The position numbers were made by a program, and so were the translations under genes. Positions 33,916-47,774 of a DNA stretch of 64,000 bases are shown in pieces; positions within the stretch are counted from its first letter, which is position 1, and each line of letters starts with the position of its first letter. Under the pieces are notes generated by a model, which ran no database searches, was not told the DNA's origin, and saw only the letters and a list, made by a program, of their open reading frames with translations. Source of the stretch: Roseivirga sp. (GTDB lineage Bacteria; Bacteroidota; Bacteroidia; Cytophagales; Cyclobacteriaceae). The stretch is from NCBI GenBank assembly GCA_021404565.1, contig JAAWWF010000026.1:248001-312000 (forward strand), written 5' to 3'.

Positions 33916-35382
33916 TTATTTTCCACCGAGGATACCACTGAAGATGCCTCCTCCGGAATCAAGTCTTTCAAAGCCTACGGAGATCATTGCACATCTGAAA
34001 CCTAAGGTATTGGTAGCCTTATCCTGATCAAGGTATCTTCTTGTACCAGGCGACATCCAGTAGGCAACATCTTTCCATGAGCCTCCTTTGTAAACCTTAG
34101 AGCGGTCATTGATCAATGAACGGAATGTGTTTCTACCAGCTGCCCAGCCATAATTACTTTCAGGGTCGTTGGTACCATCTTTTCTAACAGGGTTTAAATC
34201 TTCGAAATCGTCAAACGAAAGAGGTCGGTAGGTGTCATTTACCCACTCGCTTACATTGCCTCCCATATTGAAGAGACCGAAATCATTAGGCTCATAAGTA
34301 CCAACTCTCGAAGGAATCACATCACTATCATTGTTGATAGTACCGGCTATACCTGCATAATCACCTCTTCCTCTTTTAAAGTTGGCAAGGAAATCACCTC
34401 TTCTTTTACCATAAGGGTTCCTTACTCCTCTTCCATCCCATGGATAGATTCTACCATACTCCTCATTTTCATCAAGATACTGTGTACCCACTGTAGCTTT
34501 GGCAGCATATTCCCACTCTGCTTCGTTGGGCAGTCTGAATTCCGGAAGGTAAAGTCCCTTCTCGATAAACATCTTTTTGTTCTGATTGATGTACGCAATG
34601 ATGTCTTGCTGTAGCTGATCCAACTCATCGAGGAAAATTTCCTGAGTTCCTGAATTACTGGCAGAAGCACCGAGCATCTGGAGACTTCCGTCAGGGTTAT
34701 AGAATTCCAGCTTAAATTCATCTGGTAACTCATCAAAATCTACTGTAGCAATAATTTTAGTATAGTTTACAAAATCTGTTCTCCATGCACAGTAGTCAAC
34801 CACCTGCCTCCAGGTAACACCTACTACAGGGTAATCATTAAAACCAGGGTTGCTGTAATAGTTCTGACTATAAACATCATTAAAGGAGAAATCACTTGAC
34901 CAAACACTGTCGTTGGGTACCAGGTCTTTCAGCTCCTGACCATTGTGAGAGGTCGTTGCGGGAATAAAGGGGTTATTCGGATCATCCTTGATCTCTGTGT
35001 CTTTTCCCATCTGTTCGGTCATCGGACGGAACTGATAAAAGACATATTCTTTCCAGTCTTTGTTGGTAATCTCGGTTTCATCCATGTAGAATGAGTTTAC
35101 CGTTACTGTTCTCTCAATATTGTCGCGAGAACCAAACAGGTCTTGCTCGAAAGAACCCAGGATGGTTCGACCACCCTGAACGAAAACCATTCCCGGAGGG
35201 TTTGGTAGATTTTGAATATCATAAGGACTGAAGCTGGTTGTATCTTTACCATAACCATAAGCCGCTCCAGTGGTGCTGCTCACTCCTCCTCCTTTCTTCC
35301 CAAGCAGGGAACATGATTGTAATATTGAGGTTGACAGCAAAACAACTACTGTCACTTTCAAAAACCTCGCTATATTCTTCAT
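33916..35382 (-). CDS. GldJ/GldK-like SUMF1-domain lipoprotein
   Basis: 488-residue lipoprotein: the signal peptide ends LQSC (Cys24). A formylglycine-generating-enzyme (SUMF1) type domain follows, with PPGMVFVQGGRTILG, the SFYMDETEITNKDWKEYV strand, YPVVGVTWRQVVDYCAWRT, GGNVSEWVNDTY and the C-terminal KGGSWKDVAYWMSPGTRRY / LGFRCA. This arrangement is that of the gliding-motility lipoproteins GldJ and GldK, which support type IX secretion. It is alone here, without gldLMN, and ends with a Gly-rich tail; GldJ-like is the better guess. The presumed catalytic Cys pair of real FGEs is not conserved, as usual for Gld proteins. Confidence 0.8.
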   Translation of the reverse strand: MKNIARFLKVTVVVLLSTSILQSCSLLGKKGGGVSSTTGAAYGYGKDTTSFSPYDIQNLPNPPGMVFVQGGRTILGSFEQDLFGSRDNIERTVTVNSFYMDETEITNKDWKEYVFYQFRPMTEQMGKDTEIKDDPNNPFIPATTSHNGQELKDLVPNDSVWSSDFSFNDVYSQNYYSNPGFNDYPVVGVTWRQVVDYCAWRTDFVNYTKIIATVDFDELPDEFKLEFYNPDGSLQMLGASASNSGTQEIFLDELDQLQQDIIAYINQNKKMFIEKGLYLPEFRLPNEAEWEYAAKATVGTQYLDENEEYGRIYPWDGRGVRNPYGKRRGDFLANFKRGRGDYAGIAGTINNDSDVIPSRVGTYEPNDFGLFNMGGNVSEWVNDTYRPLSFDDFEDLNPVRKDGTNDPESNYGWAAGRNTFRSLINDRSKVYKGGSWKDVAYWMSPGTRRYLDQDKATNTLGFRCAMISVGFERLDSGGGIFSGILGGK

Positions 35383-35769
35383 ATTTAGTTTCTTTAATGA
35401 ATTCGTCCAGGTGAAATTGGACCGGCTAATATACGCTTATCTATATACTATACCAAAATCATCACATGGACATTTTCTTTAGCAAAAACGTGAATGAGCG
35501 CCTCATATTTTGTCCCAGGGCCTTAAATTATAAAGATTGCTCAATCGTGCTGCTACTGGCTGGTGGTTTTTGATACTCAAGTAGTCTGCTGGAATTGACC
35601 TAACTTGGAAATAGACAGGTTCAACAGCAGAATAAACCACTCAGTCAATTCTAAAGGTGATTGTTCTTTAATTGCACTTGTTTTATGTTGTCAAAAGAAT
35701 CTTTGAGTTAGCCAGGGGCTAATCTCTGGGTTAAACGAACGCAATGACTATTTAAAGCCAGCAGGCCTT
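35383..35769. other. Divergent intergenic region
   Basis: 387 bases between the GldJ/K-like gene (-) and the histidine kinase gene (+). It must hold the promoters of both. No RNA gene, repeat or convincing open frame was seen, and no full TTTG/TAnnTTTG promoter pair could be placed with confidence. Confidence 0.5.
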
Positions 35770-37209
35770 ATGAAAAAGAATCAACTGTATTGGGTGCTTC
35801 AGTTTGGAGGTTGGGGTGGATTGATGGTCACCAACTTTCTGGCATCGGCTATGCTGTTTCCGGTATTACCATTGCTGCTGATCAGCCTTTTTACTTTGTG
35901 TCTGGCTGTTTTCAGCAGTCACCTTTATCGCTTATATGTAAAAAAACGTAAATGGCTTGAGTTTAAAATTGTAAAGCTTATACCCAGGGTTTTCCTTGCC
36001 AGCCTCATGCAGGGGGCGATTACGGCAATTCTCAGCCTTTCGGCCCTCGCTTTTGCCATTGTGGTTCATATTCAATCCGATCCGGAGGCCTTACTGCAAA
36101 TGATGGGTTTACCCGTGGGTTCGGTCATTAACCTGGAGACACTTAAGGCCATTGAACCTCAGGTACTGCTGGATATGATGGGTTGGTCTGCCGGATCTGT
36201 GGTGGACGTGGCCCCATTGCAGGCAATTGACCCAAGTGAACTACTTGACTTGATGAATGTGCCGGAAGGGACTAGCCTGGACCTGGAATCACTGGTGAGC
36301 CTCACTCCCGACAGACTTACAGAAATGATGGGTCTGGCTAACGGGGCTACCGTGAATATGGAGACTTTAGTGGCCATCGACAACAAGACACTCTTGCTGG
36401 GAATGGGAGTTCCCAGCGGCATGTTGGTTGACATGGATACATTAAAGGCCATTGAACAAGCCAGTCTTGCCCAGTTTTCACCCGGGGTTATTTTTGGGCT
36501 GATTGCCAGCTTTGTTTCACAGTATTCAATCTTCTATATCTCCTGGTCGGCCTTATACTTTGCCTACCAGTTTTTGCAGAAGAACCGACAGGTAGAAATT
36601 GAAAAATGGAAGCTACAGGCTTCGTTTAAAGATGCCGAGCTAAGTGCGTTGAAATCTCAAATTAACCCTCACTTTATCTTTAACAGCCTGAATAATATTC
36701 GGTCGCTCGTGGCAGAGGATGGCGAAAAGGCCAGGGACTCCATTACCCATTTATCTGATCTGCTGCGTTTTTCGATTCAGTTTGATCAATATGAAAAGGT
36801 GAGCCTTGAAAAGGAGATGGAAGTAGTAAAGGACTATCTGGAGCTCGAATCTATTCAACTGGAGGAGCGCCTCGATTATAAATTTGTCATTGCCAAAGAC
36901 TCACAGGAGATGAACCTTCCTCCTATGATTGTGCAGACTTTGGTAGAAAATGCAATCAAGCATAGCATCAATGAGCTGCCCAATGGTGGTAAGGTCATTG
37001 TTGAATCCGAGCTTTCAGATGAGTATCTTAAGATTTTTGTCAAGAACTCGGGTCAACTGAAAAATGATAAGCCCGGCAAACGCAAGGGGATTGGCATTAA
37101 GAACTCTCGCGAGAGATTGCGCCTGCTATATGGTGAAAAGGCTTCTCTTGCAGTAGAGAATATGAATGAAGAAATGGTTTGCGCCACAATCAGAATACCC
37201 CTTAATTGA
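35770..37209 (+). CDS. LytS-type sensor histidine kinase with periplasmic 25-residue tandem repeats
   Basis: 479 residues. Four predicted membrane helices at about 10-32, 33-52, 74-99 and 238-262; the basic YVKKRKWLEFK loop between helices 2 and 3 is cytoplasmic. The loop between helices 3 and 4, normally short in this family, carries five 25-residue repeats (residues 108-232) and would be periplasmic. The His_kinase domain has LKSQINPHFIFNSLNN with phospho-acceptor His301, VENAIKHSI (N-box) and a GIGIKNSRERL G-box. Such kinases act as dimers with LytTR regulators, here the next gene. The repeats are a likely ligand- or partner-sensing element not seen in standard members. Confidence 0.92.
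   Translation: MKKNQLYWVLQFGGWGGLMVTNFLASAMLFPVLPLLLISLFTLCLAVFSSHLYRLYVKKRKWLEFKIVKLIPRVFLASLMQGAITAILSLSALAFAIVVHIQSDPEALLQMMGLPVGSVINLETLKAIEPQVLLDMMGWSAGSVVDVAPLQAIDPSELLDLMNVPEGTSLDLESLVSLTPDRLTEMMGLANGATVNMETLVAIDNKTLLLGMGVPSGMLVDMDTLKAIEQASLAQFSPGVIFGLIASFVSQYSIFYISWSALYFAYQFLQKNRQVEIEKWKLQASFKDAELSALKSQINPHFIFNSLNNIRSLVAEDGEKARDSITHLSDLLRFSIQFDQYEKVSLEKEMEVVKDYLELESIQLEERLDYKFVIAKDSQEMNLPPMIVQTLVENAIKHSINELPNGGKVIVESELSDEYLKIFVKNSGQLKNDKPGKRKGIGIKNSRERLRLLYGEKASLAVENMNEEMVCATIRIPLN
36091..36465 (+). repeat. Five 75-bp/25-residue tandem repeats in kinase sensor loop
   Basis: Units start LLQMMGLPVG, LLDMMGWSAG, LLDLMNVPEG, LTEMMGLANG and LLLGMGVPSG. Each is exactly 25 residues with the shared pattern L-L-x-M-M-G-x-x-x-G-x-x-V-x-x-E-T-L-x-A-I-(D/E). 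The DNA copies have diverged, so the repeats are old and under protein-level selection. Confidence 0.9.
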
Positions 37210-37259: not shown

Positions 37260-37985
37260 ATGAAAACACTGGTAGTTGATGACTCAAGGCTCGCTCGAAA
37301 CGAATTGAAGCGATTATTAAAGGAATTTGATAATGTTCAGGTAGTGGGAGAGGCCGCGAGTGTAGATGAGGCAAAGGAGAAAATTGCCGAGCTGAAACCT
37401 GATTTAATCTTTCTGGATATTCAAATGCCTGGAAAAAGTGGTTTCGATTTATTGGAAGAGCTCGAGGTGGTACCAGAAGTAATCTTTTCAACGGCCTATG
37501 ATGAACATGCCCTGAAGGCATTTGAGTATAATGCATTGGATTACCTCGTAAAACCTGTTCAGAAACAGCGTTTGGCCGGCTCAGTGGCCAAAGTTTTTGA
37601 AAAAATGAAGAAAAAGGCCAGGGAAGAAGAAGGTGATGGAGAAGATAAACTTACCTCTGATGACCAGGTTTTTGTAAAAGATGGCGAGAGGTGCTGGTTT
37701 GTACAGCTCTCAGAAATTCGATTGTTCGAAGTCAGTGGTAACTATACCACAGTATACTTTGACACCTCGAAGCCGATGATTACACGTACGCTGAATTATC
37801 TGGAAACCCGACTGGATGATAAGACTTTTTTCAGGGCCAACCGCCAGCAGATCATCAACCTGAAGTGGATTGAGCGTATCGAACCCTGGTTTAGTGGAAG
37901 CTTGCGGATTTATATGAAAGGTGGAGAAGAAATAGATGTTTCCAGAAGACAAACGTTGAAGTTTAAAGAGCTGATGAGCTTCTAA
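37260..37985 (+). CDS. LytTR-family response regulator
   Basis: 241 residues. N-terminal receiver domain with KTLVVDDSRLARNEL, phospho-acceptor Asp53 in LIFLDIQMPG and a conserved STAYDEHALKAFEYNALDYLVKP segment. The C-terminal LytTR DNA-binding domain has the beta-strand set EIRLFEVSGNYTTVYFD, FFRANRQQIINLKWIE and ISRRQTLKFKEL. It is the partner of the upstream kinase (50-nt gap). LytTR regulators bind direct repeats; its target is unknown, but the two downstream genes are likely candidates. Confidence 0.93.
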   Translation: MKTLVVDDSRLARNELKRLLKEFDNVQVVGEAASVDEAKEKIAELKPDLIFLDIQMPGKSGFDLLEELEVVPEVIFSTAYDEHALKAFEYNALDYLVKPVQKQRLAGSVAKVFEKMKKKAREEEGDGEDKLTSDDQVFVKDGERCWFVQLSEIRLFEVSGNYTTVYFDTSKPMITRTLNYLETRLDDKTFFRANRQQIINLKWIERIEPWFSGSLRIYMKGGEEIDVSRRQTLKFKELMSF

Positions 37986-37997
37986 CCAGCTTTATAT

Positions 37998-38600
37998 ATG
38001 AAGGTAAACACCCGGAAGGCGATTTTTGAATTTAGTTCTATCGTGATAGCGGTAGTGCTGGCTATGGGCCTGACGGAATGGAGACAGTCTTACCTGAATC
38101 ACAAGATGGCCGAGGCCTCCTTTGAGAAGATCGTACAGGAAGTAAGAGAGAACGTGGCGGAACTTAAGACAGACTCTCTCAAAATGGCGAATGACCTTAA
38201 GGCCATGACAGAATGGGTAAGGCAATGGACCTTAAAGGAAAAGAAGGTTCCTCTTGGTGCCAATTTTAGTTATTCATTTCTCAGCAAATCTGCGCTAGAG
38301 GTAGCCAGAATTAATCAATCGCTTACCTTTTTGCCTGGCGATAAGGTGCTGGCCATTGCGGAAATTTATGCGACACAGGATTTCTATTCAGAAAATGCTG
38401 CCGAAATATTCCATCTCATGGGTGATTTGCAGGGCGAGATTAATCGCTCAGAATCACAGGAATTCTTTGCAAGTGTACAGAAGCTCAGGTTTCATATGCG
38501 GTTGGTATTCAACACGGTGAAGGCTTACCTGAATGAAAGCGAAGACTTTCTGGAAAAATACGGTACAGGGATAAATTCGGAACAGACAACAGATGAGTGA
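37998..38600 (+). CDS. Single-TM protein, first of tandem paralogues downstream of LytTR system
   Basis: 200 residues. One N-terminal membrane helix (FSSIVIAVVLAMGLTEW, about residues 11-28) followed by a soluble, mostly helical domain of about 165 residues: YLNHKMAEASFEKIVQEVRENVAEL, LSKSALEVARINQSLTFLPGDK and a C-terminal helix pair. It is a clear paralogue of the next gene and lies 12 nt after the response regulator, so both are in the regulator's operon. The soluble part is probably periplasmic. No function is known; the TM-then-WxxxxL pattern recalls DUF6090-type proteins only loosely. Confidence 0.8.
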   Translation: MKVNTRKAIFEFSSIVIAVVLAMGLTEWRQSYLNHKMAEASFEKIVQEVRENVAELKTDSLKMANDLKAMTEWVRQWTLKEKKVPLGANFSYSFLSKSALEVARINQSLTFLPGDKVLAIAEIYATQDFYSENAAEIFHLMGDLQGEINRSESQEFFASVQKLRFHMRLVFNTVKAYLNESEDFLEKYGTGINSEQTTDE

Positions 38601-39184
38601 TGAAAGGTGGGGCCAGAAAAGTAGTATTTGAGTTTTTGTCTATTGTAATAGCGGTGGTGCTGGCAATGGGCCTGACAGAATGGAGACAGGATATTCTGAA
38701 CCACAGGCAGGCTGAAGAGTCGTATAAGAACATCATCGAGGAAATTCGAAGTAACTACAACAACCTGGAACCTGACTCTGTGCAAATGGCCAACACTATT
38801 GAACTCATTGGCCAATGGCTGGAAACGTCAGCAGCAAAGAGAGACACGCTGGCCGAGCTCGATTATACTTTAAAGCTGCTGAGCAAGTCTGCCTGGGAGG
38901 TGGCGAAAATGAATCAATCTCTCACTTTTTTAGATAACCAGAGGGTGTTGCAAGCTTCTTTGGTTTACGAATTCCATGAGCTGTATGCTGAGAGTGGTCG
39001 TGATGTATTTGAAATATTGCGCGAGATGCAAAAAGTAGATGGTAATAGTGAAGCTTTTGAAGGGGAGATGAAAGCCTTGAGAATGAGTCTCGGACTTACT
39101 TACAATGCTATGATGGGGTATATGCAGATGGCCCGAAGAGTGCTAAAGCCTGCTAACCCCCCATCTGAGTCAGCAACTGAATAG
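38600..39184 (+). CDS. Single-TM protein, second tandem paralogue
   Basis: 194 residues from ATG 38600, which shares one base with the upstream TGA (TGATG). It matches the previous gene along its length: FLSIVIAVVLAMGLTEWRQ, KNIIEEIRSNYNNLEPDSVQMAN, LLSKSAWEVAKMNQSLTFLDNQ. Duplication and divergence in place is the simplest origin. The 3' end overlaps the convergent mfd gene by 32 bases. Function unknown; the pair may form a membrane hetero-oligomer. Confidence 0.8.
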   Translation: MKGGARKVVFEFLSIVIAVVLAMGLTEWRQDILNHRQAEESYKNIIEEIRSNYNNLEPDSVQMANTIELIGQWLETSAAKRDTLAELDYTLKLLSKSAWEVAKMNQSLTFLDNQRVLQASLVYEFHELYAESGRDVFEILREMQKVDGNSEAFEGEMKALRMSLGLTYNAMMGYMQMARRVLKPANPPSESATE

Positions 39185-46751: not shown

Positions 46752-47774
46752 TTAGATGGTGGTAATATCGATTAAGGGTACTTTGACTATAAATGACTGG
46801 TCGTTTTTAATAACCTCCACCTTTTTGTCGGTGAAGTAGGAATAACGCCTTTCAATGTTTTTAAGACCTGATTTGCCACTGTTTTTAGACTCCACCTTCT
46901 TTTCCTGGAGGTTGTTTTTGATCACCAGGTACTGATCGCGGCATTCAATGTTCATTTTCAATGGACGGATTTCTGTGATCACATTATGCTTAATGGCATT
47001 CTCAATCAGCATTTGTAAGGTAAGCGGAGGCAGGTAGTGCTGCTTGTTTTCGGGTTTGATGTCGATATCCAATTGGATAGTATCTTCAAACCTGATCTGC
47101 AGCAGGTACATATAGGCTCCTATGAAATTGAGCTCCTCATGTAAGGCGACAAGCTCTTCTGAACTGCTCTGTAGAATAATGCGATAGACCTCAGCGAATT
47201 TTTCCAGGTAAGACTGCGAGAGCTTTTGGTCCTTGGAAATCAAAGAGGAAAGAATGTTCAGGTTATTGAATAAGAAATGTGGATCAAGGTGGTTTTTTAA
47301 GGCTTCCAGTTCCGCTTTGATCGATTCTTTTTGAAACTCCTCTGAGGCCAGCTGTGCATTTTTCCAGTTTTTCAGAAACTGAATACCAAAGTTGATAGAG
47401 ATTGTCGGTAAAAGAATGAGTGTACCCATGGCATTCATGGCAGTGATTTGAGCCATATCCGGTGGGTCCTGTGTCAAGACCAACTTAAAGATGAGATAGC
47501 TGATATTGATAATAAGGAGAGACAGCAAAATCCCGATAGACAGCTGCCAGTAGAAACGCTTGTTACCATGTTGCAGCCATGGAAGCTTTCGGTCCAGCAC
47601 CTTTGTCAAAAGCCTGTTGCCCAGAAAAATCAGGGCCAGAACAGCGATGACCCAGCCCGTGGTAAGATAGAGCTCAGGGGCCGCATCGGTATTATACAGT
47701 ACGAGAAAAATCGCTGCAATAATCACCAAAACGATAACCCCCTGGATTATCTGTGAACGGGTAAGAGAATTCAA
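46752..47774 (-). CDS. LytS-type sensor histidine kinase
   Basis: 340 residues, four membrane helices at about 9-27, 38-52, 77-98 and 110-131 with short loops, then the His_kinase core ALKNHLDPHFLFNNLNILSSL with phospho-acceptor His166, an IENAIKHNV N-box and a C-terminal GLKNIERRYSYF G-box. In contrast to the kinase at 35770 there is no large periplasmic domain, so it likely senses membrane-associated signals or partner proteins. It lies 13 nt after copy B and 10 nt before its regulator, on the same strand. Confidence 0.92.
   Translation of the reverse strand: MNSLTRSQIIQGVIVLVIIAAIFLVLYNTDAAPELYLTTGWVIAVLALIFLGNRLLTKVLDRKLPWLQHGNKRFYWQLSIGILLSLLIINISYLIFKLVLTQDPPDMAQITAMNAMGTLILLPTISINFGIQFLKNWKNAQLASEEFQKESIKAELEALKNHLDPHFLFNNLNILSSLISKDQKLSQSYLEKFAEVYRIILQSSSEELVALHEELNFIGAYMYLLQIRFEDTIQLDIDIKPENKQHYLPPLTLQMLIENAIKHNVITEIRPLKMNIECRDQYLVIKNNLQEKKVESKNSGKSGLKNIERRYSYFTDKKVEVIKNDQSFIVKVPLIDITTI

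Follow-up and report, generated by a model that had tools for sequence, protein, structure and literature searches.

In a LytS-type sensor histidine kinase of Roseivirga sp., the loop between the third and fourth predicted transmembrane (TM) segments consists of five consecutive units of 25 residues without gaps, and the best reading of the sequence comparisons is that this array arose by in-frame amplification, from one copy to five and in a single lineage, of a loop that the kinase already possessed. The gene lies in a stretch of 64,000 nucleotides, here called the window. We think it probable that the protein is a sensor of the LytS/LytTR type in which a TM3-TM4 loop of about 25 residues was multiplied in frame to five, giving an input domain that is elongated, lies outside the cytoplasm and acts on TM4. 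A further proposal, which we put forward only tentatively, is that this would be a new alpha-helical repeat sensor domain, extracytoplasmic and solenoid-like, which originated from a lone loop of 25 residues within the genus and whose state before amplification is preserved in the single-copy relatives.

The kinase gene (35770..37209, forward strand) encodes 479 amino acids with four predicted TM segments, and was assigned from its open reading frame and its match to PF06580; its N-terminus resembles the MKKNQLYW of orthologs. The NPHFIFN motif is typical of the His_kinase domain (PF06580), which the protein matches in Pfam with E 6.2e-26 and 90.9 bits against a curated cut-off of 25.2, while residues 387-478 give a weak match to the C-terminal ATPase PF02518 (15.7 bits, below the cut-off of 26.4). 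Next to it on the same strand, at 37260..37985, is a LytTR response regulator, the presumed partner, with PF00072 (6.9e-23) and PF04397 (3.4e-24) both over cut-off. The identification as a LytS-type kinase, originally made from the letters of the window, is supported by the PF06580 score and by the LytTR regulator next door. Kyte-Doolittle hydropathy with a 19-residue window placed hydrophobic stretches at residues 17-53 (TM1-TM2, 35818..35928, forward strand), 70-104 (TM3, 35977..36081, forward) and 231-258 (TM4, 36460..36543, forward, leading into the phosphoacceptor region), with none within the array. A K/R-rich linker at residues 53-73 precedes TM3, so by the positive-inside rule the array should face the extracytoplasmic side; hydropathy and linker together agree with the earlier placement of the repeat loop between helices 3 and 4, probably outside the cytoplasm. 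No 5TMR/7TM or other named membrane sensor domain appeared among the four Pfam matches of the kinase up to E 1.

The repeat was first described at 36091-36465, corresponding to residues 108-232, as five units of exactly 25 residues, and the periodicity there is gapless. At a lag of 25 residues the mean BLOSUM62 score is 1.73, a value reached in none of 20000 shuffles, which average -0.72 (sd 0.22); even when the best of all lags from 10 to 60 was taken for each shuffle, the observed score was attained in 0 of 2000. Within the window the units share 24-48% identity with one another in protein and 43-60% in DNA, and Tandem Repeats Finder listed no array at the loop even at score 30. The repeat is therefore visible in the protein and not in the DNA, and an array produced by slippage at the DNA level was ruled out on the same Tandem Repeats Finder result. 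The residue pattern proposed in the sequence-only reading stands in part: M5, G10 and L18 are present in all five window units and G6 in four of the five, but the "ETL" element is found in just two.

Evidence on the origin of the array came from its orthologs. A search with residues 1-99 found the kinase in 19 of 19 genus genomes, and in 17 of these the loop is a single unit (16 loops have 25 residues and that of L020 has 28), with five units in the remaining two, which agrees with the earlier expectation of short loops in related kinases. The second carrier beside the window genome is G009, which appears to be the same as locus L017 (Roseivirga sp. UBA6061, DIYF01000072.1), so that carriers total two. 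Open frames are correspondingly 378-393 amino acids in the 17 single-unit orthologs versus 491 and 500 in the five-unit kinases, and among the matches listed in a family-wide search with residues 1-99 they run from 341 to 410, with one of 134, versus 500 and 491. When 16 of the 17 single loops (L020, with its 3-residue insert, was omitted) were slid along both five-unit proteins, the top five of 455 possible starts were the five unit starts, ranked 104, 154, 179, 129 and 204 in the window kinase and 104, 129, 154, 179 and 204 in that of L017, and when redundancy was removed, leaving 13 single loops, the same starts again ranked highest in each of the two proteins. The array is therefore taken to be the native loop amplified. 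The register that fits the ancestral loop is 36079-36453, four residues earlier than the original one, and all five units are on the forward strand. Unit 1 (DPEALLQMMGLPVGSVINLETLKAI, 36079..36153) is closest to the single loops, ranking 1 of 455 positions with a score of 33.1, followed along the protein by unit 2 (EPQVLLDMMGWSAGSVVDVAPLQAI, 36154..36228, rank 4 of 455, score 18.2), unit 3 (DPSELLDLMNVPEGTSLDLESLVSL, 36229..36303, rank 2, score 26.3), unit 4 (TPDRLTEMMGLANGATVNMETLVAI, 36304..36378, rank 3, score 21.0) and unit 5 (DNKTLLLGMGVPSGMLVDMDTLKAI, 36379..36453, rank 5, score 14.8). The last of these continues into an exit segment before TM4, EQASLAQFSPG, which aligns with the 17 single-copy orthologs.

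Compared with the single loops, each of the ten units in the two carriers scored 3.4 to 5.4 sd above its own shuffles, and at most 5 of 10000 shuffles reached the observed value, although the units are similar to one another and the ten tests are accordingly not independent. The aligned array is continuous with native sequence on either side, entering from DPEAL and leaving through QASLAQFSPG. With tblastn of the window kinase against nine single-copy loci, the loop of the relative was used twice in eight of the nine (the exception was L056), once by an alignment piece whose end falls within or close to unit 1 and once by a piece whose start falls within unit 5 or just ahead of it. Some features of the single loop depart from the repeats: its glycine is at position 16 and not at position 14, and a profile HMM built from the single loops matched half of unit 1 (residues 104-115, 6.6 bits) and no other unit. 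The comparison with the 17 single-copy orthologs does not bear out the idea of the repeat as a separate sensor module, the unit being the kinase's own loop multiplied.

The surroundings of the gene and its phylogeny indicate the direction of change. Nine stretches drawn from the 17 single-copy genomes were compared, and in all nine the regulator adjoins the kinase and the gene order is the same, namely comF-like, gldJ, kinase, regulator and mfd-like, where the names comF and mfd are our presumed assignments. Over the aligned part, which runs from roughly unit 5 to the C-terminal end, the window kinase is 63-79% identical to those of the nine loci. A tree of the catalytic region was built from 32 kinases, 13 of them beyond the genus orthologs (two paralogs from the window genome and 11 from other genera), and in the loops of these 13 no repeat of the five-unit type was seen by eye. 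The two five-unit kinases pair with support of 100/99 and are nested among single-copy kinases at 94/92, just below the threshold of 95 and 80, with G005 and G011 outside the nested group. Since the five-unit kinases fall inside the single-copy ones, five units are likely the derived state, with moderate support from this tree.

Patterns of divergence between the two carriers bear on the age of the array and on the forces that maintain it. For each window unit the closest L017 unit at the DNA level is the same-numbered one (0.72, 0.60, 0.53, 0.65 and 0.72 for units 1 to 5, the pairing of unit 2 being narrow on the L017 side at 0.60 versus 0.59), from which it follows that the five copies most likely predate the split of the two carriers. 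Synonymous sites between window and L017 are at or near saturation, pS ranging from 0.66 to 0.87 among regions. The two arrays are 67% identical in protein, compared with 91% in TM1-3, 91% in TM4 and 95% in the catalytic part, and dN is 0.244 in the array versus 0.053, 0.067 and 0.039 in the same three regions, such that the rate of protein change in the array is about four to six times that of the remaining kinase. The units most conserved between the species are 1 and 5 (84 and 80%), which adjoin the membrane segments, and the least conserved is unit 3 (48% of amino acids in the original register). Over the ten units of both carriers, M5 is present in 10, L18 and L1 in 9 each, and positions 13 and 21 are always I, L or V. 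Array length, copy number and core residues have thus been kept while the remainder changes fast. Such rapid change within a fixed frame fits a shifting specificity for a partner or ligand, and would also fit partly relaxed constraint.

An alternative explanation could be near-neutral expansion, in which the loop multiplied by chance and persists as a tolerated spacer with no new role. The elevated dN of the array is what this would predict, as is the restriction of the array to one lineage, the one richest in PF06580 matches, where one kinase may drift freely. Drift alone would not readily account for the retention of five 25-residue units in both species over a distance at which synonymous sites are close to saturated, for the near-invariant core positions, or for the finding that pN is below pS in every unit (pN 0.10-0.35, pS 0.76-0.85 between window and L017). 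The earlier argument that selection keeps the protein pattern despite diverged DNA is supported to the extent of some constraint in all five units, and we regard near-neutral expansion as rather unlikely, although it is the most serious competitor to an amplified input domain.

The fold of the array was approached through AlphaFold models and composition. Alignments for the models consisted of two rows each, the window kinase and L017, and mean pLDDT was 38.6 for the full-length kinase and 41.5 for the loop alone; in blocks of ten residues the array gave 26-39 in the full-length model and 33-52 in the loop-only model. DSSP applied to these very-low-confidence models assigned two helices in four of five units (loop-only) or three of five (full-length), and such helix pairs fit a helical repeat but do not prove one. 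Neither of the structures that the sequence-only reading had considered for the loop, a helical solenoid or a disordered segment, was borne out, both predictions being of very low confidence and the composition of the array speaking mildly against disorder. A second alternative is that the array is an intrinsically disordered or flexible extracytoplasmic tether. Its pLDDT is low and averages below that of the catalytic part in the same run, but the catalytic part, whose fold is well known, itself reaches just 25-59 per block of ten in the full-length model; low array values in a two-row model therefore do not mean disorder. Composition points the other way: 42% of array residues are I, L, M, V, F or W, 18 are acidic versus 4 basic, and the charge-hydropathy value of 0.554 versus a boundary of 0.454 is on the folded side, which makes the array mildly unlike a typical disordered tether. 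We consider the tether improbable.

The repeat appears to be rare, within the reach of the searches. Family and phylum genomes were searched as samples, and a profile of the five units matched 2 of 295 family genomes at E 0.01, these being the two known kinases, and among 395 phylum genomes the window genome together with two weak matches (E 0.026 and 0.047). This profile is blind to single units, missing the 15 single-copy genus genomes in the family sample, and may also miss strongly diverged arrays. A pattern scan of genome contigs, which detects close relatives only, gave one relative locus (L017) of 47 matching stretches. Six weak matches to the loop (E 0.02-0.8) were set aside after the four loci inspected among them (L011, L012, L013 and L015) proved to hold unrelated-looking proteins. 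As to known repeat families, the best Pfam match was DIMCO_N at 14.7 bits against a cut-off of 36.7, NCBIfam gave no match to the array up to E 0.1, and the best PDB sequences had E 0.35 for the array and 0.086 for the unit profile, so that no known family was matched in the three collections. In the accessible literature, a coverage that excludes most subscription journals, no account of a LytS-type kinase with a repeat of this sort was found, and the suggestion that the repeat had not been described holds within that coverage and within Pfam, NCBIfam and PDB. A ready-made repeat domain inserted from another protein might be suspected from the presence of the array in two genomes only and from the weak match of the single-loop HMM, but this is very improbable given that in the sampled family and phylum genomes the five-unit profile matched nothing beyond the two kinases and the two weak matches, that unit length and register are those of the native loop, and that both array ends run into native flanks.

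Several features of the neighborhood may be described at least preliminarily. Downstream of the regulator are two small genes on the forward strand, sm1 (37998..38600, 200 amino acids, N-terminus hydrophobic by eye) and sm2 (38597..39184, 195 amino acids), which overlap and are paralogous; neither product has a family over cut-off, and sm2 is a diverged paralog 41% identical to sm1. They are possible partners of the kinase. Among 11 loci compared, both copies occur in the two five-unit genomes only, with one copy in six of nine single-copy loci and none in three; in L058 a different gene occupies the position, and in L056 and L060 there is no room for one. A duplication confined to the five-unit lineage was considered and rejected on the basis of a tree of ten sm rows, which puts sm2 next to the copies of G005/G011 and sm1 next to those of four further genomes. 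This topology is consistent with an earlier duplication followed by losses, and suggests that one copy was lost in each of the six single-loop genomes that retain an sm gene. Upstream of the kinase, at about 35618-35655, 11 aligned genomes share a conserved non-coding block, roughly TTaATCag...ACCattCAGtcAAT, with its two parts about 21 bases apart, and this could be a LytTR operator or promoter and is a candidate for one. The gliding-motility lipoprotein gene gldJ (33916-35382, reverse strand; TIGR03530, 481 bits versus a cut-off of 383) is divergent from the kinase and adjoins it in all nine fetched genus loci, and a regulatory link between the two is possible. Another LytS-type kinase core, 28% identical to the five-unit kinase, lies at 46815-47423 on the reverse strand. 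PF06580 matches number 72 in the window genome and 69 in G009, whereas each of the 17 single-copy genomes of the genus has between 2 and 43 (lowest in the two least complete), and the five-unit genomes are the largest of the genus, at 8.6 and 8.2 Mb versus 2.1-5.8 Mb.

By its domains the window kinase is of a known kind, a LytS-type kinase with a LytTR partner, but its input region differs. BtsS/BtsR and YpdA/YpdB (see also PMC5552118) are LytS-type systems with LytTR partners, which the window kinase resembles in its His_kinase domain, the adjacent LytTR gene and the multi-pass membrane sensor. BtsS is reported as a 7-transmembrane receptor binding pyruvate (PMC10653868). Unlike the BtsS-type kinases, the window kinase has four predicted TM segments, a five-fold loop repeat, and no named sensor domain found. 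TPR and HEAT are helical-repeat (solenoid) domains, and the array resembles them, by analogy only, in being built of short units in tandem whose hydrophobic pattern is conserved, but its unit is 25 residues and is without a Pfam match.

If the array is indeed an amplified input domain, each unit may form a short helix, a Gly/Pro turn and a second short helix, and the five together would make an elongated structure outside the cytoplasm. A ligand or partner, located in the envelope or outside the cell, could then bind the array and shift TM3 against TM4, and as TM4 continues into the phosphoacceptor (histidine) region, such a shift would determine the phosphorylation of the LytTR regulator encoded next door. 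In 17 species a single unit is enough, and amplification is therefore best seen as enlarging an existing input element, perhaps by widening the surface available for binding, by multiplying the sites on it or by letting the sensor reach further, with the output half left untouched.

With one gene in two species, the weight of these findings is moderate. New input domains of sensor kinases are mostly explained through domain shuffling. In the present case a kinase would have gone from one copy of its own loop to five, and the 17 orthologs with a single copy represent the state before.
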